Below the pieces are notes generated by a model. It was not told the origin of the DNA. It saw only the letters and a program-made list of their open reading frames with translations, and ran no database searches. Both the position numbers and the translations under genes were made by a program. Of a stretch of DNA of 64,000 bases, positions 4,405 to 63,515 are shown one piece after another (positions within the stretch are counted from its first letter, which is position 1; each line of letters begins with the position of its first letter). Origin of the DNA: Adlercreutzia sp. ZJ176 (GTDB taxonomy: Bacteria; Actinomycetota; Coriobacteriia; Coriobacteriales; Eggerthellaceae); the NCBI RefSeq assembly GCF_011038975.1, contig NZ_JAAKEC010000009.1, forward strand, positions 62,001 to 126,000, written 5' to 3'.

Positions 4405-7134
4405 CTACTCCTTCGAGAGCCGCACGGCGCACACCTTGTACTCGGGGCACGCGCAGATGGTGTCGAGGCTGTCGATGGTGAGCCAGTTGGCGTTGCCGTC
4501 CTGGAAGTGGAAGGGCATCCACACCTCGCCCGGGTTCGTCTTGTCCGACACGCGGGCCGTGGTCATAATAGACCCGCGGCGGCTCTCCAGGCGCACGCGG
4601 CCGCCGTCATCGACGCCCAAGGAGGCGGCGTCGGCAGCGTTCACCTCGACGAACGACGAGCTGACGATCTCGTTGAGCCCGTCGGTGCGGCCCGTCATGG
4701 CGCAGGCGTTGTAGTGGTACAAGATGCGCCCGGTGGTGAGCATGAGCGGGTACTCCGCGTCCGGCAGCTCGGCTGCGGGCTTGTAGGCCGCCGTGGAGAA
4801 CGCCCCCAGCCCGCGCGTGAACCTCCCCACGTGCATGATGGGCGTGCCGGGATGGTCGGGCCCGGTGCAGGGCCACTGCAGGCCGCGCCCCGCCACCTCG
4901 GGGCCGTCGAGGCGCGCGTGGCTGATGCCGGCGAAGCTCGGGGTGAGCGAGGCGATCTCGTCCATGATCTCGGCCGGCGTGAGGTCGGGCTGCGCGTAGC
5001 CCATGCGCCGCATGATCTCCGAGAAGATCCACGTGTCGGGCCGCGCATCCCCCGACGAGGCCACGGCGCGGCGCACGCGCTGCACACGCCGCTCGGTGTT
5101 GGTGAACGTGCCCTCCTTCTCCGCGTAGCTGATGCCCGGCAGCACCACGTCGGCGTAGGCGGCCGTCTCGGTGAGGAACAGGTCGTCCACCACCAGGAAG
5201 TCGAGCGCCTCGATGCCGCGGATGACGTGGCTGATGTCGGGATCGGTGCGCACCTGGTCCTCGCCGAAGATGAACAGCCCGCGCACCGTGCCCTCGACGG
5301 CCGCGTGGAACACCTGCGTGGCGAACAGGCCCGGCTCGGGCTTGATCTCAACGCCCCAGGCCGCCTCGAACTTCGCGCGCACCTCGGGGTTGGCCACCTT
5401 CTGGTAGCCCGGGAGGTCAGCTGGCGTGGCGCCCATGTCGCACGCGCCCTGCACGTTGTTCTGGCCGCGCAACGGGTTGACGCCGCAGCCGGGTCGGCCC
5501 AGCTTCCCGCAGGTCATGGCCATGTTGCTCATGGACATGACGCCCTCGGTGCCGGTGGAGTGCTCGGTCACGCCCAGGCAGTAGATGATGGGCGCCTGGC
5601 GCGCGGTGGCGTAGAGGCGCGCGGCGGCGCGCAGGTCGTCGGCGCTGATGCGGCAGATCTCGGCCACGCGCTCGGGCGTGCAGTCGGCCACCATGGCCGC
5701 GAACTCCTCGAAGCCCTCGGTGCGGCTCTCGATGAACTCCCGGTCGACGAGGCCCTCCTCGATCATCACGTGGCACATGCCGTTCGCGAACGCCACGTTG
5801 GTGCCGGGGCGCAGCTTCAAGTGCAGGTCAGCCTGCGCCGCCAGCCCGATGTCGCGCGGGTCCACCACGATGAGCTTGGCGCCGCGCTCCACGGCGGCGC
5901 GGATCTGCATGCCCGCCACGGGGTGCGCTTCCTCGGGGTTCGACCCCACCAGCATGATGACCTCCACGTCAGGCGAGGTGATATCGGCGATGGGGTTGGT
6001 CATCGCGCCCGACCCGAGCGTGGTGGCCAGGCCCGCCACGGAAGGCCCGTGGCACACGCGGGCGCAGTTGTCCACGTTGTTCGTGCCGAAGGCGCAGCGC
6101 GCCATCTTCTGGAGCATGTAGACGTCCTCGTTGGTGGAGCGGCTGCAGGCGAAGGCCGCCAGGGCGTCCGGGCCGAAGTCGCGCTTGATCTCGCTGAAGC
6201 GGCGCGCCACCAGGTCAAGCGCCTCGTCCCACGCAGCGGGCTCGAGCTGGCCGGTCGCGCTGTTCCTGACGAGCGGCGTGGTCAGGCGCTCAGGCGACTG
6301 CACGAAGTCGAAGCTGCCCGAGCGGCCCTTCACGCACAAACGGCCGCGGTTGGCGGGGCCGAAGGCAGGCTCGGTGTCGACGATGCGCCCGTCGCGCACG
6401 ACCAGGTTGAACTGGCAGCCCACCGCACAGTGCGGGCAGGTGGTGAGCGTCTTGCTCACCTCCCAGCTGCGGTACTCCCGGCGGCGTTTCAACGTGAGCG
6501 CGCCGGTGGGGCACGCCGCCGCGCAGCACCCGCAGCTCTCGCAGCTCGTCGTCTTCCAGTCGGGGCCGAACGGCGCCTCGATGGTGGTGCGCGGCCCCCG
6601 CTTCGCCGCCTTGAGCGTGTGGTTGCGCGCGAAGCTGTTGCACGCGCCCACGCAGCGCTGGCAGAGGATGCAGAGGTTCGGGTCGTAGGCGAGGAAGGGG
6701 TTGCTGTCGAGCACGGGCTTGCGACGCGGCTCGGCAGGGAACAGAGGCTCGGTGACGCCCACCTCGCGGCACACGTCCTGCAGCTCGCACGAGCCGTTGC
6801 GCGCGCACGAGAAGCAGAAGTTCGTGGAGTTCAGGCCGTGGGCGGACAAGGTGAGCCCGAGCGCGGCCTTGCGCGCGTCGATGACGCGCTGCGTGCCGGT
6901 CTCAACCTGCATGCCCTGCTCGACGGGCGTGTTGCAAGCCGTGACGAGCCCGGGGCGGCCCGCCACCTCGACCGAGCACACGCGGCACGAGCCGATGTCG
7001 TTCACGCCCTTCAGGAAGCACAGCGTGGGAATGCGCACGCCCGCCTTGCGCGCGGCGGCCAGGATGGTGGTGCCTGCCGGCACGCTGACAGGCGAGCCGT
7101 CTACGGTGAGCGTGATCATGGCGACCTCAGACAT
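4405..7134 (-). CDS. Formate dehydrogenase, molybdenum/tungsten catalytic subunit
   Basis: This subunit should oxidise formate (or reduce CO2) at a molybdopterin centre and pass electrons along built-in Fe-S clusters. Domains in order are a 2Fe-2S ferredoxin fold (residues 1-80, GSCRVCSVEVAG), a NuoG-like His-Cys cluster (FCFSCARNGSCELQDVC), two 4Fe-4S motifs (CILCQRCVGAC, CESCGCCAAACP), the 4Fe-4S domain CPHCAVGCQFNLV, and the pterin-binding body to residue 909. The Mo ligand is cysteine in ARVCHGPSV, where the E. coli FdhF enzyme has selenocysteine. The start at 7134 follows AGGGGAGGA and overlaps the upstream gene by 8 bases, so the two are translationally coupled. The architecture matches soluble NAD(P)-dependent formate dehydrogenases. 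Confidence 0.93.
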   Translation of the reverse strand: MSEVAMITLTVDGSPVSVPAGTTILAAARKAGVRIPTLCFLKGVNDIGSCRVCSVEVAGRPGLVTACNTPVEQGMQVETGTQRVIDARKAALGLTLSAHGLNSTNFCFSCARNGSCELQDVCREVGVTEPLFPAEPRRKPVLDSNPFLAYDPNLCILCQRCVGACNSFARNHTLKAAKRGPRTTIEAPFGPDWKTTSCESCGCCAAACPTGALTLKRRREYRSWEVSKTLTTCPHCAVGCQFNLVVRDGRIVDTEPAFGPANRGRLCVKGRSGSFDFVQSPERLTTPLVRNSATGQLEPAAWDEALDLVARRFSEIKRDFGPDALAAFACSRSTNEDVYMLQKMARCAFGTNNVDNCARVCHGPSVAGLATTLGSGAMTNPIADITSPDVEVIMLVGSNPEEAHPVAGMQIRAAVERGAKLIVVDPRDIGLAAQADLHLKLRPGTNVAFANGMCHVMIEEGLVDREFIESRTEGFEEFAAMVADCTPERVAEICRISADDLRAAARLYATARQAPIIYCLGVTEHSTGTEGVMSMSNMAMTCGKLGRPGCGVNPLRGQNNVQGACDMGATPADLPGYQKVANPEVRAKFEAAWGVEIKPEPGLFATQVFHAAVEGTVRGLFIFGEDQVRTDPDISHVIRGIEALDFLVVDDLFLTETAAYADVVLPGISYAEKEGTFTNTERRVQRVRRAVASSGDARPDTWIFSEIMRRMGYAQPDLTPAEIMDEIASLTPSFAGISHARLDGPEVAGRGLQWPCTGPDHPGTPIMHVGRFTRGLGAFSTAAYKPAAELPDAEYPLMLTTGRILYHYNACAMTGRTDGLNEIVSSSFVEVNAADAASLGVDDGGRVRLESRRGSIMTTARVSDKTNPGEVWMPFHFQDGNANWLTIDSLDTICACPEYKVCAVRLSKE

Positions 7135-42982: not shown

Positions 42983-43801
42983 CTACGCGGCGGCGATGCG
43001 CCGGATGAGATCGTTGGCCCAAGCGACAGCCTCATCTGCACCGGGCAAGACGTCAAGGCCAGCAGCGGCCTCCGAGTAGAGGAGGTCCCACGCATCGCCC
43101 TTCACTATGGTCGGAGGCCACTCCTGCTTTCGCCTGTACGAGAACAAGCGCTCGCACACCTCCCTCACATCATGTAGGTCGACCTCGCCGTTTGTGACGA
43201 TGAGCTGGAGGTCTATCAGGTCGTGGGCACGCTGACTGTTTGGCTCGCTCACTCCATGGAGCTTCTGGGCAATCTGATAGCGAAGACTCATGAGGGACAC
43301 AGGGCTTGGCTCCGGGAAAGCCATCGCCTTGAGCATCCTCGCGGCATCCTTCGGCACGACGAGGTCAGCGTCGTCGGCATCACCGATCTCGTTATGGCCG
43401 AGCTCGAACGTCACGGTGCACCAAGGCTTGCCGAGATAGCTCAGCTTCACCGCATAGGGCTGCATGACATAGGAGTCAGGAACGTCTTCGGGATGCGCTT
43501 TGGGCATCTCTACGAGCCGACCCGTAAAGCCCTCCCAGCCATCCGAAAGGCGCCGGGAGAAGTCGTCGGCGAACTCGTCTTGATCGACTGACCTCGCTGC
43601 ATCGAGGTCAGTCGTGGCTCTCGTCGCCGCATCGCCGAAGCGAATCTTGAGGGACGAGCCACCCTTTATCACGACACCCCTCAGCATCTGTCCCACGATA
43701 GTGTTAGCGATCACGGTGCGATTCCCCAGATAATCCTCTTCGCTCACACCGAAACGGCGGATCGCCATATCCAGATTTCTAACGCTGTTAGGTCTTTTCA
43801 T
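42983..43801 (-). CDS. abiEii: AbiEii-type nucleotidyltransferase toxin, copy 1
   Basis: The 272-residue toxin of a type IV toxin-antitoxin pair. AbiEii/MenT-like enzymes are DNA-polymerase-beta-fold nucleotidyltransferases; related toxins add nucleotides to tRNA acceptor ends. Motif I reads VIKGGSSLKIRFG then TTDLDAARS, giving GS and DxD. SLRYQIAQKLHGV, AHDLIDLQLI and the C-terminal ADEAVAWANDLI are shared with copy 2 (62176-62994), which is exactly as long. The ATG at 43801 overlaps the AbiEi stop (ATGA); an in-frame GTG at 43807 is possible. Confidence 0.9.
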   Translation of the reverse strand: MKRPNSVRNLDMAIRRFGVSEEDYLGNRTVIANTIVGQMLRGVVIKGGSSLKIRFGDAATRATTDLDAARSVDQDEFADDFSRRLSDGWEGFTGRLVEMPKAHPEDVPDSYVMQPYAVKLSYLGKPWCTVTFELGHNEIGDADDADLVVPKDAARMLKAMAFPEPSPVSLMSLRYQIAQKLHGVSEPNSQRAHDLIDLQLIVTNGEVDLHDVREVCERLFSYRRKQEWPPTIVKGDAWDLLYSEAAAGLDVLPGADEAVAWANDLIRRIAAA

Positions 43802-44331
43802 CGCCACCCCATGTCCTTCTCGAGCTCTTCGTATTCCCGCTTGGTGAGATATCCTTGAGCTTGCGCCTCTTTCGTGGCAGTCAGCAGCCTCTCGTCCATC
43901 ATCGTCTGCCTGGCTGCGCGAATGGCCGTGGCCACGTTCTGGGAGGGAATTCCCTCGTAGCGCGTCACGACATCTCCCTTGCCCGGCTTCCTCACGCGGA
44001 CACCAGAAGGAAGCTTCCTTCTGGTCCGCGTAGGCACAGCGACGAAGATGCGATTGGGGTCCGTCGGGGCAAGATCCAGCATGCCGATCACGGATTCGCC
44101 ATATAGGTATGCCTTCCTACCCAAACGCGCGACCGCTATGGCGTAGGGGTCATAGCTGCTCGGAACGTATTTGGTCAGTCGATAGAGCCCGCGGGAGATG
44201 TTCTCCAGCTTCCCACGGTGGGCGAGCTTGGCAAGCTCCACGGGCGGTATCCCCGCCTCGCAGGCGTCCTCAGTAGATATGAGGTAGTAGTTATCTACCG
44301 CGATCTCGTATATGTCATCGTAATAGCTCAT
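43798..44331 (-). CDS. abiEi: AbiEi-type antitoxin, copy 1
   Basis: The 177-residue antitoxin and autorepressor partner of copy 1. The N-terminal winged helix is IYEIAVDNYYLISTEDACEAG and LAKLAHRGKLENISRGLYRL; the C-terminal domain (about 75-177) carries the family's MLDLAPTDPNRIFVAVPTRT and YEGIPSQNVATAI. No ribosome site precedes the ATG at 44331. The promoter's -10 ends six bases before it, within a 34-bp palindrome, so the transcript is probably leaderless and self-repressed. Confidence 0.9.
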   Translation of the reverse strand: MSYYDDIYEIAVDNYYLISTEDACEAGIPPVELAKLAHRGKLENISRGLYRLTKYVPSSYDPYAIAVARLGRKAYLYGESVIGMLDLAPTDPNRIFVAVPTRTRRKLPSGVRVRKPGKGDVVTRYEGIPSQNVATAIRAARQTMMDERLLTATKEAQAQGYLTKREYEELEKDMGWR

Positions 44332-45105: not shown

Positions 45106-47946
45106 TTGTATCCGTTGCTGATCGTCCGAGTGGAGATCGTCTGCTTGATACTCCTGATTTTTCTCGGCATCAACGCCCGCTATTACAAAATGGGAAAAGA
45201 CAATGGCAGCTTTAAGAGAATGCTGTTCTTTGCCATTGGCCATGTTGTGTTCGACATAATCACCGTGCTGACGGTGAACAATCTGGACCAGGTCCCCATC
45301 TGGGTCAACTACATAGCCCATGTGGTGTTTTACCTGTTCGCCATTTTGTTTGCCCATGAGTTCTTCTGCTATGTGATTGCTCTGTCCTACAGTGCGAAGC
45401 GGATTCAGAAGGCGGTAAGAATTATTGGCCTTTCCCTGGTGGGGCTCTATCTGCTCCTCCTGCCGGTGATGCCCATTGAGTATCTTCAGGGCAACGGAAC
45501 CAATTACAGCCTAGGGCCGGCAGCCGTTGTAGGCTATGGCCTTGGCATGATATTTCTAGCAGGCAGCGCCGTGATCCTGACCGTGAATTTCAAAAAGCTG
45601 GCGCCCCATGTTCGGATGGCCTTAATTCCCATGCTCACGGTGATGGTGGCGGCGGAGTGCATCCAAATCGCGGTGCCCGAGCTGCTGATTACAGGCGGCG
45701 CGGTAACCGTTGTCACGGTGGCGTTTTTCTTCTCCCTGGAAAACCCGGCGGATGTGTTTAGGCAGAAGCTGCTGATTGACGCCCTCACCGGCGTGAAGAG
45801 CCGCAACAGCTATGAGCTCGAGATCCAGCAGATGGAGGAGAAGTTCGTCCAGAACCGGGATGTTCGCTTCGGGATGGTATTCTGCGACATCAACGACCTG
45901 AAGGAGGTCAACGATGAGTTTGGCCACCTGAAAGGGGATGATTACATCGGTGACATCGCCCAGATCTTGACGCGGGATCTGCAGGGGGCGAAAAGCATCT
46001 ACCGCATGGGCGGCGATGAGTTTCTGGCCATATACCGCAATGCGGACGAAGCGAAAATCCAGCAGGAGATCGATCGGGTCAATGCGGACTGCAAGGCCAT
46101 GTCCGAAAAGGTGCCCTACCAGATGAGCGTTGCCGTCGGCTACGCCGTATCCGGCGAGGAATACGCCTCGTTGCGCAATGTGCTGCAGATGGCCGATTAT
46201 CTCATGTATCAGAACAAGACGGACATGAGGCGGGAAAAAGCCCGCCTGTCACAGGACGGGCAGCAGCTGAATGTCACCGGCTTGACCGACCGCATCTTCG
46301 ATGCCTTTGCCGCAACAGGCGGAAGGAACTACCTTACCATGGGCAATCTGTCCACCAACGTTTCCCGCTGGTCTCAGGCGGCGGTGGACTACTTCGGCCT
46401 GCCCGGCGAGTTCATTTACGACAACGCCACCGTTTGGATGGAGTATATCCACCCGGATGACCGCGCCACCTATTGGGCGGACATCAGCGCGGTTTTCAAC
46501 GGAAAAAAGAAGGAGCACGACATAGAATACCGCGTTCGCAACAAACGGGGAGAATATGTGGTATGCACCTGCCGGGGCAGAATACTGAAAGGCAAAAGCG
46601 GTGAGCCGGATCTGTTTGTCGCCACCCTGATCAATCACGGCATCGGAGAAACCATCGATCCCATTACCGGGCTTCACAACGAGCGCATCCTGGCTCCCTA
46701 CATGGAAAAGCTGCTACGGGAGAAGACCAGGGTATCCTTCCTGACGGTGAAGATCTGCTCCTTCAGCAGGATCAACCTGCTGTATGGCCACTTAACCGGC
46801 AACCAGATCCTGGGGCAGTTTTCCGGTATTCTGAGAAAGATCGTTGGCCAAAAAGGACGGATTTTCCGGATCGGAGACACCAGGTTTACTCTTTGCCTGC
46901 CGGGAATGGATGCGGAGGATGTTTCCAAGCTCTATACAGACCTGACAAGCGCCGCCCGCTTCGAGATCACCATGGACTCCATCACCATTCCCCTGAGGCT
47001 GGCGGGTGGAACCTTTGCCGTGGACGAGAAATATACCGGCAGCGTCGCCACCGTCCGGAACAATCTGACCAGCGTGCTAGAGCGTTCCGAGCAGGAGGGC
47101 CACGGCCGTCTCACATTCTACGGCGATCCGGCTCGAGGCGAGAGCCAGGTAGACTTCAAACTGCTGACCGCCATCTATCAGGACGCGGTGACGGAGCGGA
47201 AGGGCTTTCGCCTGGAGTATCAGCCCATTCACCAAATGGATACCGGAGAGGCCATCGGGGCGGAGGCTCTGCTGCGGTGGCGGGACGAAGAATTCGGCAA
47301 GGTGCACCCGGGACAGTTTGTACCTTGGCTGGAAAACGATCCCTGCTTCTTCCAGGTGGGCTGGTGGATCCTTCGGAAAGCCCTCACAGATGCCCGGGAG
47401 ATGCTGCCGGTGGTGCCTGGTTTCGTGATCAAGGTCAATATCACCGTCCTGCAGTTGGAGGACGAACGGTTCAACGCCATGGTGCTGGATGTGCTGCGGG
47501 AGACCGGCTTCCCGCCCCAGCAGCTTTGCCTGGAGCTGACGGAGCGCTGTCGCGAACTGGACGAGGAATACCTGAAGTCGCAGATCGAGTTCTTTCACAG
47601 GTTTGGCATTCAGATCGCCTTGGACGATGTGGGTACCGGCTTCTCCTCCCTGGGTGTTTTGCTCAATCTCCCGATAGACGAGGTCAAGCTGGACAAGTCC
47701 TTCATCACGGATATACGCAGCCGGGAGGCTAATCAGGCGTATGTGGGCGCAATCGTGGATGCCACACGGAGACTGGGCCTCCATAGCTGCCTGGAGGGGA
47801 TCGAAGACCGGAAGACCTACGAGTACCTCCGCTCTCTCGGCGCAACCTGCTGCCAGGGATACTATTTCTCAAAGTCTCTGCCACCCAGAGACCTAAAGGC
47901 CTACCTGCTGACGGAAAAAGGAAGAAGGGAAGGTACCAGACTATGA
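45106..47946 (+). CDS. Membrane GGDEF-PAS-GGDEF-EAL cyclic-di-GMP protein, second copy
   Basis: The 946 residues have the same layout as 29008-31839: membrane helices (1-215), GGDEF with intact RMGGDEF (about 220-380), a PAS-like domain (RWSQAAVDYFGLPGEF), a degenerate second GGDEF (IDPITGLHNERI; signature FRIGDTRF) and an EAL domain with GAEALLRW, VNITVLQ, ELTER, LDDVGTG, VKLDK and EGIED. No RxxD inhibition site is seen before GGDEF. Both halves look catalytically possible. The start is TTG 45106, which lines up with the sibling's N-terminus. Base composition is visibly poorer in GC than the core genes, suggesting transfer. Confidence 0.9.
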   Translation: MYPLLIVRVEIVCLILLIFLGINARYYKMGKDNGSFKRMLFFAIGHVVFDIITVLTVNNLDQVPIWVNYIAHVVFYLFAILFAHEFFCYVIALSYSAKRIQKAVRIIGLSLVGLYLLLLPVMPIEYLQGNGTNYSLGPAAVVGYGLGMIFLAGSAVILTVNFKKLAPHVRMALIPMLTVMVAAECIQIAVPELLITGGAVTVVTVAFFFSLENPADVFRQKLLIDALTGVKSRNSYELEIQQMEEKFVQNRDVRFGMVFCDINDLKEVNDEFGHLKGDDYIGDIAQILTRDLQGAKSIYRMGGDEFLAIYRNADEAKIQQEIDRVNADCKAMSEKVPYQMSVAVGYAVSGEEYASLRNVLQMADYLMYQNKTDMRREKARLSQDGQQLNVTGLTDRIFDAFAATGGRNYLTMGNLSTNVSRWSQAAVDYFGLPGEFIYDNATVWMEYIHPDDRATYWADISAVFNGKKKEHDIEYRVRNKRGEYVVCTCRGRILKGKSGEPDLFVATLINHGIGETIDPITGLHNERILAPYMEKLLREKTRVSFLTVKICSFSRINLLYGHLTGNQILGQFSGILRKIVGQKGRIFRIGDTRFTLCLPGMDAEDVSKLYTDLTSAARFEITMDSITIPLRLAGGTFAVDEKYTGSVATVRNNLTSVLERSEQEGHGRLTFYGDPARGESQVDFKLLTAIYQDAVTERKGFRLEYQPIHQMDTGEAIGAEALLRWRDEEFGKVHPGQFVPWLENDPCFFQVGWWILRKALTDAREMLPVVPGFVIKVNITVLQLEDERFNAMVLDVLRETGFPPQQLCLELTERCRELDEEYLKSQIEFFHRFGIQIALDDVGTGFSSLGVLLNLPIDEVKLDKSFITDIRSREANQAYVGAIVDATRRLGLHSCLEGIEDRKTYEYLRSLGATCCQGYYFSKSLPPRDLKAYLLTEKGRREGTRL

Positions 47947-49498: not shown

Positions 49499-50191
49499 TC
49501 AGACAAGCTTCAAGGGGTTGATGTCCAGCTGCTTGCATTTGCGCCAAACCAGGACCATGTACCACACATCGCAGATCTCGATTGCAGCGAAGATCAGCCA
49601 CATGACGCCGAACTGATCGAAGGAATGGGCGGGCAGGTAGTTAAACATGACGATGAAGGTGCCGAACCACTTGCAGAAAGCGATCCAGAAGGACTGGCCT
49701 TGCACGTTGTCGCGCTGCCAGATCATCGCGATGAACAGCGCGCTCATGAGGAGATTCTGCGAATAGGCGATGAACTTGGCAGCTTCCCAGGTCGCTCCGC
49801 CGAGATTCGGATCATGGAAGGCGGGGATGGTGGCAAGGAATTCCGTTCCGATGAAGATGAAGATGAAGCAGAAGGCGAGCATGAGGATGAACATGCCGCA
49901 GAAGCTGTACTTCCCAGGCTTGGCCTTGTACGTGTCCGAAAACGCCCTGCCTCCGAACTTGAGCACCGTGAACACGATGACTACGTCGAAGAGAGCCCAA
50001 ACCGTATTGATGACCTGAGGCAACAGCATCATATCCGGCGAGTAGAAGAGCATAGAGAACCTGACCTCCCATGCGATGTTGATTGCCAGAGCCGCGAGCG
50101 GCATGCCATAGGTCTTGTCCGCGAAGTCCCTGCGGATGATGAGGATGTACACGATGGTCCAGAACAGACCGCTAATGCCAACGAATACCAT
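49499..50191 (-). CDS. Seven-helix membrane protein, possibly Pyr4-like terpene-cyclase family
   Basis: The 230 residues form seven hydrophobic segments. AALAINIAWEVRFSMLFYSP in helix 2 has the WE pattern seen in small membrane terpene cyclases of the Pyr4/PaxB group, and DVWYMVLVWRKCKQ ends helix 7. The assignment is tentative and rests on size, topology and this motif. The ATG at 50191 follows GGAGGAACGGG. It is divergent from a TetR gene; matching half-sites lie before both genes. Confidence 0.6.
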   Translation of the reverse strand: MVFVGISGLFWTIVYILIIRRDFADKTYGMPLAALAINIAWEVRFSMLFYSPDMMLLPQVINTVWALFDVVIVFTVLKFGGRAFSDTYKAKPGKYSFCGMFILMLAFCFIFIFIGTEFLATIPAFHDPNLGGATWEAAKFIAYSQNLLMSALFIAMIWQRDNVQGQSFWIAFCKWFGTFIVMFNYLPAHSFDQFGVMWLIFAAIEICDVWYMVLVWRKCKQLDINPLKLV

Positions 50192-50205: not shown

Positions 50206-50299
50206 CTCAAAGTGACAGATGTAACATCGCAATGGTATCGTTGACGGCATGAGACACGCTGACTCGATGGAGCACATCCGCAGGCATTGTCACTTTGAG
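50206..50299. promoter_or_regulatory. Paired operator half-sites CTCAAAGTGACA / TGTCACTTTGAG
   Basis: Perfect inverted 12-bp copies at 50206-50217 and 50288-50299, one beside each divergent start. A TetR dimer or tetramer could bind both. Confidence 0.7.
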
Positions 50300-50308
50300 A
50301 GGAAGCGC

Positions 50309-50863
50309 ATGGGAAGGCTGACGGCGGATTTATCCGATGTGGAGAGCAGGATCCTCGATGCAACCATAGAGTTACAGAGCGAGAAGGCTTACGGAGATAT
50401 CAGTGTCGTGGACATCTGCAAACGCGCAGGCGTGTCCCGTCAGACCTACTACAGGCATTACGAAGGAAAGGAGGATGTCTACCTCCGCTATCTCGACGAC
50501 CTACTCCATCAGGTGTTCGAGAACGAGGAACAGGGGCAGACATTCGATCGACTGTTCGAATCCTTGGGCAAGCTGTTCGCGGGCAATCGGCAGTTTCTCA
50601 GTTGCCTCTTCAAGGCCGGACTGGATTCTAGGATACTCTTCCGCTTCGAGCGGCTTCTCGTGTCGATGGGATCCCTTAGAGGGTTCGGCTCATCGGATCG
50701 GGCTATGCAGGCATTTATCGCGGGAGGCGTGTTCAATGTCATGAAGCGCTTCGTCTTGCAAGAGCCGGCTCCGGATGCGAAGCAACTTGCAAGCGCGCTG
50801 AAAACGCTCGCCCTTCCGGTTGTGGTGAATGCCAAGGAGCGGCAGATCCGAGAAGACAAGTGA
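50309..50863 (+). CDS. TetR-family regulator
   Basis: The 184 residues open with the helix-turn-helix SRILDATIELQSEKAYGDISVVDICKRAGVSRQTYYRHYEGKED, then a helical ligand domain as in the TetR_C_33-like group. The ATG at 50309 follows GAGAGGA; an upstream in-frame ATG at 50249 lies before the operator half-site and is unlikely. Its probable target is the divergent membrane protein. Confidence 0.88.
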   Translation: MGRLTADLSDVESRILDATIELQSEKAYGDISVVDICKRAGVSRQTYYRHYEGKEDVYLRYLDDLLHQVFENEEQGQTFDRLFESLGKLFAGNRQFLSCLFKAGLDSRILFRFERLLVSMGSLRGFGSSDRAMQAFIAGGVFNVMKRFVLQEPAPDAKQLASALKTLALPVVVNAKERQIREDK

Positions 50864-51711: not shown

Positions 51712-53184
51712 CTAGAAGCCCCATGCGGTAGCTAAGTCACGATCATAACTGTGCGGCTGCTTGATCGTTGGCATCTTGTCCACTTGGACCTGCGTTGGAT
51801 AAGGGATCGCGGTGCCACTGGCAATGCACGCGCCTTGTGGAAGAACGGGAATCATGCTGCTAGTTGCATGATCGATGAACGACACGGCTTTTCCGACGGC
51901 ACGAAGATCGTCGTCATTTACCAACCGATGAATGAAATAGTTATGCATCTGGGAAATGATTGTCGGCGAGATATCAGAAGGCCTTTGGCTGCTCACCGTT
52001 AGATACATTCCGAACTTCCTACCCTCTTTCACAATCTCCTCGAAGGTCTCCAGTCGGTAATCACGCCAGCTTTCGCTTTCGCGCTGGGAATCGTACGAGA
52101 GGATATTATGAGCCTCGTCAACGATGAGATGAACGCTTGAGTCTTGCTCGCTGCGACCGCGTGAGCGCTGCTCCCGGTACACGTATTTTGCGATGATAAG
52201 CGGGACCAGCTTTTTCTGATCCAGGTTCGCATCTAGCAAGGAAAAAACCTTCACGGGTTCATCAGCGCTGAGCAGCTTACCGCCCGGTGTCGTCTCATAT
52301 AGTTTGCGAGCCTCTTTCATCTGGTTTTCCAGACGCGGAATCAAACTCGATATATGCTCGCGCGCAATGCTGCCGCTGCGCCAACGCTGAAGGAATAAGA
52401 ACCGAGCGCAGAATTCGACTATTGAGGGCAAATCCTCGACTAAGTCACGAAGTTTTTTGGGGAGCGTGTTGAAAGCGCTGAAAACATTGCTTTCGACTTC
52501 AGCAGCGCTATTACCGTACGCATTGCCGATTCTAAGAATGGGAGTTGCGGTACCTGCAAAGATTTCTATATCCTCGACCGTCTCTCGCACTTTGTCTTCC
52601 GAATCACGCAGGTTGTCTTTGTCGACAACGAATGCCATGCACCGGGCAAAATCGTCGCGTTGCTCAGCGAATACGCGTTCGTGACCAAAATAGCCTTCGA
52701 GAAATGACCTCATCATCTTCTCCAAATACGCCACACTGTTGTGAGCATCGACGATTTTACGGGCAGTACGAAGGCAAGCGCGCAAAAAGGGGCGCTGGGT
52801 CTTTTCGGTTGCCTGCGTGAGAATGGCCCAAGTCTCCAAATCGAAGTAGAAGTCATCGGGCACGGGTACCTTCTGCTTGCCTGCCTTGGCAGCGGTATCC
52901 AGCTCATACACCTTCTTTTCCGGACACAAAACGTCAGATGACGTATATTCACCGTTGAAGTCGATGAAGATGAACTGGCCCTTTCCAGAATCCAGAGAGC
53001 CAGCCTCCCTCATCCTGTCAAAGCAATCTGTATAGAACTTGCACAGCGTGTTCGACTTGCCCGAGCCCGTGTTGCCGAATATGCCAATGTGGCTAGCAAA
53101 GAGGCTGCTTGTCGGCGCCACAACCGATACCCCTTCTTGCCCAACAAGGCTTCCCAGCCTGAAGGGCTTTTCCATGGGCTTCAT
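51712..53184 (-). CDS. herA: HerA-type DNA translocase, ATPase core (SIR2-HerA system)
   Basis: The 490-residue frame holds the HerA/FtsK-like ATPase: FRLGSLVGQEGVSV, Walker A GIFGNTGSGKSNTL, IFIDFNGEY, Walker B VHLIVDEAHNILS and SQRPSDISPTIISQMHNYF. It lacks the family's N-terminal HAS barrel, which lies just upstream in another frame (53093-53578). The joint is a run of seven T; six would fuse the frames. No ribosome site precedes the internal ATG 53184. With the adjoining SIR2 gene it forms the known SIR2-HerA antiphage pair, in which HerA hexamers activate NAD+ cleavage. Confidence 0.9.
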   Translation of the reverse strand: MKPMEKPFRLGSLVGQEGVSVVAPTSSLFASHIGIFGNTGSGKSNTLCKFYTDCFDRMREAGSLDSGKGQFIFIDFNGEYTSSDVLCPEKKVYELDTAAKAGKQKVPVPDDFYFDLETWAILTQATEKTQRPFLRACLRTARKIVDAHNSVAYLEKMMRSFLEGYFGHERVFAEQRDDFARCMAFVVDKDNLRDSEDKVRETVEDIEIFAGTATPILRIGNAYGNSAAEVESNVFSAFNTLPKKLRDLVEDLPSIVEFCARFLFLQRWRSGSIAREHISSLIPRLENQMKEARKLYETTPGGKLLSADEPVKVFSLLDANLDQKKLVPLIIAKYVYREQRSRGRSEQDSSVHLIVDEAHNILSYDSQRESESWRDYRLETFEEIVKEGRKFGMYLTVSSQRPSDISPTIISQMHNYFIHRLVNDDDLRAVGKAVSFIDHATSSMIPVLPQGACIASGTAIPYPTQVQVDKMPTIKQPHSYDRDLATAWGF

Positions 53185-53578
53185 GAAAAAAACTTATCAT
53201 GGTGAGTTCTTCGGGAGTCAGAACGTATACATCCGATGAGACGAGTGGGAGAATCGTGATGCCCCTGTCGAACTTGTCGCCCCTCCTAACGCCAAAGACC
53301 GAGATCTCAATCACACGCTCAATTCGTGACCCTCCTGTCGTGCGGGCAGAATAATCGTCTTGGGAGGAGCTAACCTCGTTCTGGATTTCGCCTTCGATGC
53401 GTCCAAATATGTGGTCGAAGCCGCACGGTATCTTGACATAGCCTCCGACGGATACATTGCGGATCAACTGGCCGTTGTGAAACAGGAAAGCCTCATTCCT
53501 ATCCCCATAGACGCGCGCCCTTATCTTGGTCCCACGCACCTCCACAACTCGCGCAACAATAAGGGATGAATCGAGCAT
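53093..53578 (-). CDS. HerA N-terminal HAS-barrel part, out of frame with the ATPase
   Basis: About the first 130 residues (SSLIVARVVEVRGTKIRARV, GGYVKIPCGFDHIFGRIEGEI, YVLTPEELTMISFF) form the beta-barrel start typical of HerA proteins. The following 31 residues are the out-of-frame reading of the ATPase start. ATG 53578 shares one base with the SIR2 stop (TGATG), so its translation is coupled. The gene is either broken, slips at the T7 tract, or makes two polypeptides. Confidence 0.85.
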   Translation of the reverse strand: MLDSSLIVARVVEVRGTKIRARVYGDRNEAFLFHNGQLIRNVSVGGYVKIPCGFDHIFGRIEGEIQNEVSSSQDDYSARTTGGSRIERVIEISVFGVRRGDKFDRGITILPLVSSDVYVLTPEELTMISFFHEAHGKALQAGKPCWARRGIGCGADKQPLC

Positions 53579-54744
53579 CAGCGCACCCCATTCAGTATTT
53601 TGCAGAATCCCTCGAGGGCGAATTCGCCGCCGGATGGAACCACGTACCAGACGTTACTGGCATGCTGGAACTTCTCCTGGTATTTCTCAAGGTCAACTTC
53701 CTTGTGACAGCATACAAGCAATATGAGTTGCGGATTCTCGAGTGCACGTCGTGTTATATCAAGTATGTGCTCGTCTTCGAAAGAAAAGCCGAAGCTGATC
53801 AAGAGCGCGTTGTTGCGATCAAGCTCGTTCGCATAGAGGCGGAGAAGCTCGTAGTACGTTAACCCGAGAACGGTCTCTTCGAACTTTCGCTTTGTTGGAT
53901 TTATCAAGTAGAAGGCGCGATGGTAATCTGCGAGATAATCTACTAGATTTGAGGCGTCTTTCCCAGATAGCCCTTCCACAACCCTGACAAGATTACCTTC
54001 GGCCTCCTTGACCTGCGATTTGACGATCTGCTCAATTTGGGGAAGCTCAGCAAGGGCCATCGTGCCCGATGCTTTGCCCGCAAACGAGTCCAACGCTTCG
54101 ATGTAGTTGTGAAAGCAGATGTTATCGGAAGCATGGCTCTTGCCCCACGTAACCGACCCATGGAGCTTTATGACGTTAAGGGTGGGAACCTGCGCGGAGT
54201 ACTCCATGGAAAGGGATTGCTGATACTGCGTTCGGCTGAATGAACGGATGGCAAAAACAGGATTGACCCTTCCTTCAAACCCGTCGTTGTACGCACATCC
54301 CGACCGTTCCAGAGCAAGTTCGATCATGGGGTCGTAGTTGGTAGTGAACAGACATGCGCGCCTGGGAATCGTTGTCGTACCTCGCGTTTCGATAATTCGC
54401 TTGAGATGATCGCAGAAGTCGAGCATTTCGGTCGTCGGAGCAATATCGCGCATAGGCAGAAGGACGTTTTTGAAGTATTCGAGCTGCAAGAGAGCCTCAG
54501 CGAATTCAGCAAACACAGGGTCTTGCCATTTATGTTTGTGGCACCATTCAAGCCACTGCTCCCTATTACCGAGCGTCGGTAGCAAGCCTGCGCAAAACCC
54601 CGCACCTAGCAGAATGTTGATGTGTGAGTTCGAAAAGGCATTGCGCAGCGTTTCTTTCGAGAGGTCATCTAATTCTAAGCCGACGCCATTATCTGCACAG
54701 GTTATTACCTGCGAAGCGGGAGTAAACGAGAACGATTTACGCAT
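53578..54744 (-). CDS. SIR2-domain NADase of SIR2-HerA defence system
   Basis: The 388-residue SIR2-like protein shows NILLGAGFCAGLLPTLG (NAD-binding GAG), LFTTNYDPMIELAL (catalytic Asn region), NVIKLHGSVTWG (catalytic His) and ALLISFGFSFEDEHILD. In characterised SIR2-HerA systems infection triggers NAD+ depletion and abortive defence. The start at 54744 follows AAAGG; an in-frame ATG at 54810 is possible. Its stop overlaps the HerA start by one base. Confidence 0.9.
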   Translation of the reverse strand: MRKSFSFTPASQVITCADNGVGLELDDLSKETLRNAFSNSHINILLGAGFCAGLLPTLGNREQWLEWCHKHKWQDPVFAEFAEALLQLEYFKNVLLPMRDIAPTTEMLDFCDHLKRIIETRGTTTIPRRACLFTTNYDPMIELALERSGCAYNDGFEGRVNPVFAIRSFSRTQYQQSLSMEYSAQVPTLNVIKLHGSVTWGKSHASDNICFHNYIEALDSFAGKASGTMALAELPQIEQIVKSQVKEAEGNLVRVVEGLSGKDASNLVDYLADYHRAFYLINPTKRKFEETVLGLTYYELLRLYANELDRNNALLISFGFSFEDEHILDITRRALENPQLILLVCCHKEVDLEKYQEKFQHASNVWYVVPSGGEFALEGFCKILNGVR

Positions 54745-54867
54745 CAGGCAGCCTTTCGGGATTTGGTTATTGCCTGATCGTATGATAACCTTGGGGACCA
54801 AGAACCGCATGTTGATCGAACTCGTAGCGCACCAGCACAAAGGCAGGCGGGGTAGTGTTTTCCGCAA

Positions 54868-56046: not shown

Positions 56047-57069
56047 TTACCAGGTTTTGTCTTCGTAGGGCGTATCTGCGTGGCCTTTTGCTTTGCACCT
56101 GCTGACCAACTTGTCGAGAGGCCCTCTCCACATAGCCTTGAACCAGTTTGTGCCACCAAACCACTTTACGAGGGTGGGGCTAATTGCGTAGTAGATCTTG
56201 ATGAAGGCGCGTCCGGCAGCGGTCTCTGCAAGTTCGTAGTCGCGGAAACGGCGCAAGGTCCAAACCTCGGGGCAATCGTAGGAACCATAGGCTGCGGTAG
56301 CAACGTAGCAGCCTTTCTTTTCCTCTTTCTTTGAGGCCCAATACTCCTCATCGCTCATGTCTGACTCGACGCGGTCCAGCCATGCATAGATTATCGAATC
56401 AAAAAACTTGCCTACTCTTATATCGGTCCAGCGGTAGGACTTAAAATTGCCTGCGATCAGCTTCCCGTTTCTAGAAACAGTCGCTCTGTTCCCCGCATCT
56501 ATTACATCGAGACAGGGCATTTCGAAGTTGGAACTTTCGAGGTTCCACGCAGATACGTCAGGGTGATATATGTCAGGGATTCTGATCTCTGCGTCAGGAT
56601 CGTCAATTTGCCTTCGTTCGTATAAATTGATGCGTTGATTTATGCAAAACCGGAATGTTGATTGATATGAAGATGTCAGCGCTTTGAATACCTCGGGGTT
56701 GCTCTTGCGGGCCGCTCTTGCGGCTTTGGTAGCGCTTTTGAAGCAGTCGTCGATGGCGCTTTTGACTCTTCTCTCGAATTGCGGTTCGAACTTGTCTGGC
56801 GGTCCAGTGTAGCCTGCTTCAAATTTCGCCCAGTCCCAAGCCAGGTCATCTGCTTTCCTGCTATCCAGTCGTGGGTAGCCCTCTTTCTCGAGTGCGTTCT
56901 GCAAGTCATACGCCGAACTGTCAGCATGTTCGCTGATTGCATTAGACCAATATTGAAATGTGCCATAGTACGAAAACGGGTCACCTGTCATCACGGATAT
57001 TCTTTTGAGTTTCAAATGAGTTTCCTCTGTGAGCTTGAATACTTCATCTTCGGCTTTATTCGGTGCCAT
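56047..57069 (-). CDS. CFI-box-CTERM domain protein
   Basis: The 340-residue protein ends with GCYVATAAYGSYDCPEVWTL, RRFRDYELAETAAGRAF and YYAISPTLVKWFG, the CFI-box C-terminal domain, whose function is unknown. The N-terminal 250 residues are soluble and charged, without motifs that I recognise. It is less GC-rich than core genes. It is the only intact gene between the SIR2-HerA operon and AbiE copy 3, on the same strand, with its own long upstream gap. Confidence 0.8.
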   Translation of the reverse strand: MAPNKAEDEVFKLTEETHLKLKRISVMTGDPFSYYGTFQYWSNAISEHADSSAYDLQNALEKEGYPRLDSRKADDLAWDWAKFEAGYTGPPDKFEPQFERRVKSAIDDCFKSATKAARAARKSNPEVFKALTSSYQSTFRFCINQRINLYERRQIDDPDAEIRIPDIYHPDVSAWNLESSNFEMPCLDVIDAGNRATVSRNGKLIAGNFKSYRWTDIRVGKFFDSIIYAWLDRVESDMSDEEYWASKKEEKKGCYVATAAYGSYDCPEVWTLRRFRDYELAETAAGRAFIKIYYAISPTLVKWFGGTNWFKAMWRGPLDKLVSRCKAKGHADTPYEDKTW

Positions 57070-57917: not shown

Positions 57918-58760
57918 TTAAGGGCTCAAGGCCCCATTGCATAACATACGCACGGCATCGAGCGCATCTTCCCACGAGAGCCCCGCCGCGAAGTCGTTCC
58001 TGTTCTGGTATCTCTTCCAATGCCCAGCCATATCCTCGCTTGCCGCCAAGGCATCGACGACAGATTCGCAATCAGCGAGCATGATGTCATGACCCCTCGC
58101 CTTCGCGGTTGCCGCGACGGCTTCCGCCAAGGTGCCGTAGTCGATGTCGGCTCCCATGTTGGCTAGCGCCCACATGTCGTAGAAGTCCCTCATGCGCGTG
58201 TTGAGCGTGGAGCGAACGAGCATGGTCTCGATCTTCTCGGCGAGCACGGTTTCCATGTTATATGCGAGGATGTCGATGTCGCGATCCTCAAGCATGAGAC
58301 GGTAGGCGTAGTTGATAGCCGAAGGCGTAATCGCATCACCCGTCGAAATATCGAGCTTCATGGGGATCTCCGTCTTGCCGAGGTGCGCACGCATCTCGAT
58401 ACGCACGCCTCCGTACTCCGAGTCCTCCATGATCTCGTATGCATCCTCAACATCGAAGGCCATGCCGTCTGCCAAGGGGATGGCGGCGATCACCCTCGTC
58501 ATCTTCACGGCGCTCTCGACATCCAGCGCCTTGTCCTGCATGGTGACGTCGGTGCCCCTCGTCATACGCTGCCCAATATCGAGCATGGAAGTCACGAGCA
58601 TGCCGCCTTTGAGGACGAGGTTTCCCTTGTATTCTGATTCCGCCACGCGCTCAAGGAAGCGCTCCATGGCATAGCGACGTTGCAAGAGCTGCGCCTTGCC
58701 GCTGTCCCCCTTGGCGAGGTTCTTGATGAGGTCTTTCACCTTCCTCGGATTGTCGATCAT
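57918..58760 (-). CDS. abiEii: AbiEii-like nucleotidyltransferase toxin, copy 3
   Basis: The 280-residue protein is of a different AbiEii subfamily from copies 1 and 2. LVLKGGMLVTSMLDIGQRM then TRGTDVTM marks motif I; where most relatives have DxD this copy reads GTD, lacking the first Asp by my alignment. YRLMLEDRDIDILAYNMETVLAEKIET and RMRDFYDMWAL are typical. ATG 58760 overlaps the antitoxin stop by four bases. If the Asp is truly missing the enzyme may be inactive or use another residue. Confidence 0.87.
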   Translation of the reverse strand: MIDNPRKVKDLIKNLAKGDSGKAQLLQRRYAMERFLERVAESEYKGNLVLKGGMLVTSMLDIGQRMTRGTDVTMQDKALDVESAVKMTRVIAAIPLADGMAFDVEDAYEIMEDSEYGGVRIEMRAHLGKTEIPMKLDISTGDAITPSAINYAYRLMLEDRDIDILAYNMETVLAEKIETMLVRSTLNTRMRDFYDMWALANMGADIDYGTLAEAVAATAKARGHDIMLADCESVVDALAASEDMAGHWKRYQNRNDFAAGLSWEDALDAVRMLCNGALSP

Positions 58761-59359
58761 AGGAGCACCCCCATAACGCCCCAGACACGCGATTCCATGT
58801 TCATCGTTCGTGCGTACTCTGACAAGCGCGCAAGGTTCTTGCCCTTGGAGGACACGTAGGACTTCAGCGCGTAGTTGAATTCGGTAACATCAGTGCTTTT
58901 TCTCTTGCGGATCACATCGCAGATGGTCCGCTCCTTGTCGTAGGCCTTGACCAGGTTGCCGTCCGGCGTCTTGACGTCACAAACTCCCATGCTGTGCCAC
59001 TCGGGCTTCACGTAGTAGATGCGAACGCCCTGGTCCTTGAGAGACGGCGAGTTGTAGCCGGACTCCACGCTGACCGACAGCGGGATGGGCTCGCGCTCGC
59101 TCATGTCGTGCAGGAACAGCGCGGCGTCATGCGAGAAGATGGCTTTCGGAAAGCGTGCCTGCAGCAGCGCAAGCTCGTCCGGAAAGGCGTCTTTGGACAG
59201 GTAGATGCCGCGCCCCTGCTTCTCAAGTTCCTTTTCCTTCACATAACGATAGAAGGAGTCCTTGGGAACCCCCTCCTTCGCAGCTGCTGAAGCTGTGATA
59301 ATGCCGTCGCCCTCTTCGAGGATGCGATCGAGCGTCTGGGTATGCTTTGCGACTTTCAT
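58757..59359 (-). CDS. abiEi: AbiEi-like antitoxin, copy 3
   Basis: The 200 residues have an N-terminal HTH (ILEEGDGIITASAAAKEGVPKDSFYRYVKEKELEKQGRGIYL) and the AbiEi C-terminal domain (FPKAIFSHDAALFLHDMSER, YNSPSLKDQGVRIYYVKPE, YDKERTICDVIRKR). The ATG at 59359 has no ribosome site; TATGAT ends six bases before it within a palindrome, as in copy 1. Confidence 0.9.
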   Translation of the reverse strand: MKVAKHTQTLDRILEEGDGIITASAAAKEGVPKDSFYRYVKEKELEKQGRGIYLSKDAFPDELALLQARFPKAIFSHDAALFLHDMSEREPIPLSVSVESGYNSPSLKDQGVRIYYVKPEWHSMGVCDVKTPDGNLVKAYDKERTICDVIRKRKSTDVTEFNYALKSYVSSKGKNLARLSEYARTMNMESRVWGVMGVLL

Positions 59360-62175: not shown

Positions 62176-62994
62176 CTACTTCGCCGCATCGATGCTCTCA
62201 ATGAGCCTATTCGCCCAGTCTATCGCCTCATCCACGGTCGGAAGCACTTGAAGCCCCAAAGCCGCATCAGCATAGAGGCTCTCCCAATCTTCACCCCTAG
62301 CCACAACGGATGGCCAGCTTTGGAGTTTTCGATAGTTGAAGAGCCTTTCGCAGATCACCCTCGTTTCCGCTAAGTTGACCTCACCCTCGGCGATCTGCAC
62401 CTGGAGGTCGACGAGGTCGTGCGCCCGCGACGAGCCTTCTTCCGTCACCCCGTGAAGCTTCTGCGCGATTTGATAGGGTAGCCTCATGATGGGCACAGGA
62501 TCGAGCGGCGGGAAGCCAAGTCTCTCGAAGATGCCGGAAAGCTCCTTTGGAAATATCATGTCTGGGTCTTCTGCGTCGCCGAGCTCGTTGTGTCCGACTT
62601 CGAGGATGACCGTCATCCATGATTTGCCATTGTAGGACAGATTGACGTCGAAGGGCTGCATGACGTAGGGCTTGGGCACCCCCTTGGGGCTGGCCTGCTT
62701 CTTCTCAACGAGGACTCCCGTGAAGCCGTTCCACCCGACCTCCAGCGAATTCGCCAGCGCCTTCGCGTACTGCTTGATATCCGCCAACCGCGCGGCGTCG
62801 AGGTCTTTCGAGAACCTGGTTGCGGAAGACCCGAACCTGAGCTTGAGCGCGCTTCCGCCCTTGACCGCGCCCTCTGGGAGCATCTGGGCGACTATGGCGT
62901 TTGCCATCGACCGGCGCAGCCGCACGACATCGCCCTCGTCGGCGATGCGCTCGATGGCAATGTCCAGGTTTCTCCGACTGTTTGGCCTGCTCAA
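62176..62994 (-). CDS. abiEii: AbiEii-type nucleotidyltransferase toxin, copy 2
   Basis: The 272 residues are clearly homologous to copy 1 throughout. Motif I is AVKGGSALKLRFG then SKDLDAARL (GS and DxD complete). YQIAQKLHGVTEEGSSRAHD and VDEAIDWANRLIESI are shared. The start is TTG 62994 behind AAGGAG, overlapping the antitoxin stop as TTGA; a longer frame upstream is Arg-rich and is the shadow of AbiEi. Confidence 0.9.
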   Translation of the reverse strand: MSRPNSRRNLDIAIERIADEGDVVRLRRSMANAIVAQMLPEGAVKGGSALKLRFGSSATRFSKDLDAARLADIKQYAKALANSLEVGWNGFTGVLVEKKQASPKGVPKPYVMQPFDVNLSYNGKSWMTVILEVGHNELGDAEDPDMIFPKELSGIFERLGFPPLDPVPIMRLPYQIAQKLHGVTEEGSSRAHDLVDLQVQIAEGEVNLAETRVICERLFNYRKLQSWPSVVARGEDWESLYADAALGLQVLPTVDEAIDWANRLIESIDAAK

Positions 62995-63515
62995 GCTAGC
63001 TCCTTTCTCAACCGTCTGTACTCGTCGTCTCTGACAAGCCCTCGCTCTTTCGCGTTGCGCGCGGCGTCGAGCAGGCGCTCGGGCATCACGCGCCCTTTGC
63101 AAGCCACCAGAGCATCATAAACGCTCTGGCTCGGTATACCCTCGTATATCGTCTGTTCTGCGTCCTTTGCTGGGACGACGCTCACCCATTCGGGCAGGGC
63201 CTTCCTTGTGCGGTTAGGTGTTGCGACCGTGATCTTGGCGGGGTTCACGAGCGCAAGCCCGTGCATCGAGAGCACGGCGTCTCCGACAAGGAAGGCCTCC
63301 TCGCCAACAAGGGCTACCGCCTCGGCGTAGCGGTCGTACTCTGTCGGAACCCATTGCAAGATGCGGTACAGCCCGCGCCCCCGCCGATCGAGCTTCCCGA
63401 GCCTCGCCCAGCGAGAGAGCTCCGACCTCGTGGCTCCGACCTCCTCGGCCTGCGCCGTGGTGACAAGGCCGTAGTTGTCCGCCGCAATCTCGTATATGTC
63501 ATCAAAATGAGTCAT
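62991..63515 (-). CDS. abiEi: AbiEi-type antitoxin, copy 2
   Basis: The 174-residue antitoxin resembles copy 1: DDIYEIAADNYGLVTTAQAEEVG, WARLGKLDRRGRGLYRI, LSMHGLALVNPAKITVATPN, YEGIPSQSVYDALV. The ATG at 63515 lacks a ribosome site and lies six bases after TAACAT. The upstream order is HTH gene, terminator, 16-bp-arm palindrome, promoter. Confidence 0.9.
   Translation of the reverse strand: MTHFDDIYEIAADNYGLVTTAQAEEVGATRSELSRWARLGKLDRRGRGLYRILQWVPTEYDRYAEAVALVGEEAFLVGDAVLSMHGLALVNPAKITVATPNRTRKALPEWVSVVPAKDAEQTIYEGIPSQSVYDALVACKGRVMPERLLDAARNAKERGLVRDDEYRRLRKELA

Follow-up and report, generated by a model that had tools for sequence, protein, structure and literature searches.

Adlercreutzia sp. 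ZJ176 carries, in the 64,000-nucleotide stretch of contig NZ_JAAKEC010000009.1 analyzed here as a whole (the window), an operon of the SIR2-HerA antiphage type in which the herA coding sequence changes frame at a run of seven T's. This raises the question of whether the defense system has been lost, is switched or rescued through the run, is naturally split, or has simply been misread. The elements concerned are the following.

53578 to 54744, minus strand: predicted SIR2-like NADase gene (388 aa when started at the ATG of 54744)
53093 to 53578, minus strand: HerA N-terminal HAS-barrel frame, with matches to PADLOC PDLC04097 and PDB 8wiv
53186 to 53192, minus strand: T7 tract with the one-base frame break, read TTT TTT then C in the barrel frame
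51712 to 53184, minus strand: HerA ATPase frame, 490 aa, with matches to DUF87 (Pfam) and PDLC04097

The assignment to SIR2-HerA, which the initial annotation had made from the letters, is borne out by Pfam, the PADLOC profiles, and the chains of solved complexes. The SIR2 gene, for which a TTG start at 54867 is open too, matches Pfam SIR2_2 and the PADLOC SIR2 profile PDLC04080 (E 1e-56) and aligns with the SIR2 chains of complexes 8yhx, 8w9l, and 8j4u; its TTNYD and LHGS stretches, aligned to these chains, presumably contain the catalytic Asn and His. The gene lies beside herA, its TGA stop and the next ATG overlapping as TGATG with one base common to both frames, an overlap already described in the initial annotation and confirmed by the minus-strand coordinates. 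The same layout, in which a SIR2 gene precedes one for a HerA made up of HAS barrel and DUF87 ATPase, is described for the SIR2-HerA system Nezha (V. cholerae classical biotype, PMC11559045; structures 8yhx, 8j4u, and 8wiv/8wld). Nezha is characterized by a 12:6 SIR2-HerA complex, NADase activity, and phage defense. Unlike Nezha, the window copy has its herA interrupted between barrel and ATPase, with no single HerA chain encoded by the sequence as it stands. A literature search on the HAS barrel of SIR2-HerA returned no report, although this does not prove that none has been published.

The barrel and the ATPase do lie in different frames, as originally proposed, and the ORF coordinates and profile matches agree on this. 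The HAS frame covers positions 4 to 143 of the 618-position PADLOC HerA profile PDLC04097 (E 1.6e-19) and residues 17 to 488 of the ATPase ORF, with a Walker A motif (GNTGSGKSNT), cover positions 147 to 611 (E 1.6e-132); because the two frames hit consecutive parts of one profile, they represent adjacent pieces of a single gene rather than chance ORFs. Structural matches agree, with the HAS frame matching residues 8 to 129 of the 8wiv HerA and the ATPase frame matching HerA chains, among them those of SIR2-HerA complexes. The barrel frame runs for ~131 native residues to the T7 tract and then for ~30 out-of-frame residues to the stop at 53093. The placement of the break at the tract also held: blastn against the herA of the closest copy, that of the family relative G117, gave a single +1 indel, at nucleotide 392 of the G117 gene. 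Barrel and ATPase are therefore not on one polypeptide in the window, and since herA is broken at T7, we classed the operon as a broken SIR2-HerA copy and not as an active member. The tract is the longest homopolymer of the operon. Runs of this kind are unremarkable in the window (2 observed versus 1.32 expected), and a survey of 228 long ORFs of the source genome (374 kb; the longest ones starting with ATG and reaching 300 aa or more, some of which may be antisense) found no T run of 7 on their coding strand.

To place the split in its phylogenetic context, 29 related loci were compared: 26 from a genome scan, G117, and two class-level genomes. Three are duplicates or near-duplicates (L092 = L003, L028 about L027, L024 about L022), leaving ~26, and the weak class-level matches L093 to L095 (37 to 51% identical over part of the ATPase) are outside this set. 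Barrel and ATPase share one open frame in 29/29 loci (~26 without duplicates), a HAS match (E < 1e-3) lying upstream of the ATPase in all of them and a SIR2 match upstream of herA in 28. The junction codons are AGC TCT TTC ATG in G117, with neither a T run nor an extra base, and AGT TCG CAT ATG in the outgroup G138; the Collinsella junction is likewise without a T run, and the locus of G314, a genome of the window's order, Coriobacteriales, is identical to the Collinsella locus L003. A T7 does occur near the junction in one locus from an unrelated AT-rich genome (L010), but there the frame is open. With all relatives in one frame and the nearest copy lacking the extra base, the sequences indicate that the lesion is derived, and is neither a conserved recoding site nor a naturally split HerA. 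Outside these loci, no relative was found in the viral contigs searched, the phages searched gave just 4 weak partial matches, and the plasmid matches listed were all <40% identical; in the congeners G028 and G029 (one genome per species), nothing matched the ATPase at the cutoff used. As a separate observation, the HerA frame of L027 and L028, 99.8% identical and from low-coverage MAG contigs, stops early, inside the ATPase.

The initial annotation would have been refuted by an ATPase frame that starts alone in all homologues, which the 29/29 one-frame loci contradict. The ATG that opens the ATPase frame right at the break would suit a HerA made as two chains, barrel and ATPase, that reassemble. 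Such a natural split is hardly credible given the single chain across the junction in every relative. Moreover, a Shine-Dalgarno-like 4-mer is absent from the 40 nucleotides before the first ATPase ATG, and the barrel frame stops ~90 nucleotides beyond that ATG, which makes stop-start coupling unlikely. An ATPase gene with its own start was rejected on these grounds, there being neither a ribosome-site-like 4-mer nor a split relative.

Recoding, by +1 ribosomal slippage at UUU-C or by transcript slippage, might instead supply a useful minority of full-length HerA. UUU-C is shift-prone in E. coli, a +1 shift is what the junction requires, its codons read TTT TTT C, tRNA-Phe would be expected to pair with UUC after the shift, and TTT and AGT are uncommon in the source genome (4.4 and 1.6 per thousand, respectively). 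However, the T7 site is not conserved, TTT followed by C is not avoided (159 of the 547 TTT codons of long ORFs), and the downstream RNA fold is no better than that of shuffled sequences (z -0.55). The runs that a review cites for bacterial slippage comprise 9 A or T (PMC5009743), and T7 falls short of these. We found no conserved slippery site with stimulators and consider a productive slippage of this kind very improbable, conserved recoding being rejected by the absence of the tract in near relatives.

The lineage is one in which a homopolymer may be expected to be unstable. Profile searches of the source genome for MutS_I, MutL_C, and NucS_C gave no match, where the same profiles matched in 11, 11, and 7, respectively, of 14 named genomes used as positive controls. 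MutS_I was found in none of 138/138 family genomes, and NucS_C matched in 24/138, each time over no more than a short stretch of about 35 to 50 positions, the source genome not among them. This lack of known mismatch repair in the Coriobacteriia is already known, NucS and MutS-MutL being reported as absent from all class members analyzed in PMC5290159. With no MutS, MutL, or NucS, the T run is a plausible place both for an indel and for its reversion, and T-run indels would be expected to escape repair in such a lineage.

The same absence of repair fits a reversible switch, the phase-variable control that the initial annotation had raised as an option, in which tract lengths that turn the gene on or off would alternate within the population and so ration a costly NAD+-depleting defense; that T7 is the longest run of the operon and that both coding halves are conserved would also fit. 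Phase-variable defense genes such as mod of restriction systems and pglX of BREX are likewise turned off by a homopolymer indel. Unlike theirs, the window tract is neither conserved (it is absent in G117, G138, and Collinsella) nor long, and no second length was seen; with 21 A/T runs of at least 7 in 604 kb of the source genome, nothing marks it as kept for switching. Literature searches for defense genes made phase variable by homopolymers returned one paper containing all the terms and otherwise general papers or nothing, which does not prove that no such report exists. We regard such control as improbable.

How long herA has been broken can be gauged against G117, whose SIR2, HAS, and covered ATPase sequences (L002/L031) are 72%, 91%, and 84% identical, respectively, to the window. 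Gene order and the TGATG overlap are the same, but in G117 the herA frame crosses the junction, which has no T run, and stays open as far as the contig edge, and it is the SIR2 gene that carries a lesion, one in-frame TGA where Trp is expected (L031, about 5560 to 6728). The NG86 dN/dS values between the two copies are 0.178/1.409 (SIR2), 0.051/1.621 (HAS), and 0.081/0.937 (ATPase); the last value is for the initial 156 codons, which is as far as G117 covers the ATPase before the contig edge. The window's ATPase stretch is 66.0% identical to that of the outgroup G138, compared to 60.3% for the unbroken G117 stretch. Ratios well below 1 in all three parts and an ATPase no more diverged than its unbroken counterpart argue against long decay, and as judged from these sequences, the break is either recent or an artifact.

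An artifact would mean that the true genome is one T shorter and encodes an intact herA within an ordinary working SIR2-HerA operon. The break falls in a homopolymer of a draft genome of 49 contigs, both herA halves bear the mark of purifying selection in their dN/dS, and the junction is intact in all relatives, as an error would predict. Against this, a comparison of 604 kb of the source genome with 1.0 Mb of the congener G028 revealed no frame change in the 80 G028 ORFs (86 kb) that carried a coding signature, and in the reverse direction 1/86 ORFs changed, over only ~64 nucleotides near the 5' end; the third-position mismatch filter was passed by 80/326 and 86/336 aligned ORFs, respectively. 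The method flags the herA break itself as a positive control. The assembly thus looks sound, with little sign of being frameshift rich, and we hold an error at this one site to be an unlikely but serious alternative. A first frame test by tblastn had flagged split frames in 5 and 1 cases. For five of the six, the mismatches showed no concentration at codon position 3, suggesting noncoding or antisense frames, and in the sixth (L059/L075) the shift precedes the start of a gene beginning MKGFLNEF, which resembles MscL; this pair is not among the listed filtered rows and probably missed the third-position filter by a narrow margin.

The explanation we favor, and consider rather probable, is that of a Nezha-type SIR2-HerA operon whose herA was put out of action not long ago by the insertion of one base into a T run; of the options set out initially, loss of function is the one preferred, while phase variation and productive slippage are unsupported. 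In the window's lineage, a C-to-T change probably first created a run of six T's, to which replication slippage would then have added one, uncorrected because known mismatch repair is missing. The insertion would sit in the linker between HAS barrel and ATPase, and ribosomes on the barrel frame should reach a stop ~30 codons after T7. The cell would then make SIR2 and a truncated barrel, with the ATPase scarce or missing and no working SIR2-HerA complex, full-length HerA being present at most in traces from rare recoding or rare revertant cells. In Nezha, deletion of herA raised the plaquing efficiency of several phages and abolished immunity, as reported for V. cholerae (PMC11559045), and for the related system HerA-DUF4297, contact with the partner is attributed to the HAS domain (PMC11291478, PMC12198126) and the ATPase is described as required (PMC11291478). 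A truncated barrel with SIR2 should not defend, and the system is most likely off in the source genome, with a predicted loss of defense. Three points weigh against loss of function: the ATPase-frame ATG right at the break makes a separate ATPase possible, recoding at UUU-C of a few percent might yield enough HerA, and one wrong base is possible in the assembly.

The surroundings of the operon set it within variable DNA, in a stretch missing at the corresponding site of G028, whose matching DNA ends at window position 47933. The neighboring features are as follows.

42983 to 44331, minus strand: AbiEi/AbiEii pair
49499 to 50191, minus strand: membrane protein of the Pyr4-like transmembrane terpene cyclase family (PF25129)
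50249 to 50863: TetR regulator, adjoining the Pyr4-like gene
56047 to 57069, minus strand: ORF of 340 residues next to the operon, unmatched in Pfam and PADLOC at the thresholds used
57918 to 59359, minus strand: AbiEi/AbiEii toxin-antitoxin-type pair, neighbor of the operon
62176 to 63515, minus strand: AbiEi/AbiEii pair

The three separate AbiE pairs within ~20 kb around the operon mark a defense-rich variable region. A C8 run lies ~20 nucleotides beyond the stop of the 340-residue ORF.

Across the 138 family genomes searched, two copies of the system were found, both with a lesion and in different genes, a pattern consistent with a cost of the system; the second lesion, that in the G117 SIR2, is just suggestive because the G117 assembly is fragmented and 8% contaminated. 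As it stands, a defense operon most likely silenced by a single recent indel calls for caution against counting all SIR2-HerA hits as active. A more speculative reading, which we think has a slim chance of being correct, is that ordinary short T runs serve by accident as contingency loci in a class that lacks all known mismatch repair, with herA toggling at the level of the population by one-base slippage. Were that so, an NAD+-depleting defense would be mostly silent yet quickly recoverable, the SIR2-broken G117 copy would point to the same silencing pressure, and the missing mismatch repair of the Coriobacteriia would be linked to reversible defense.
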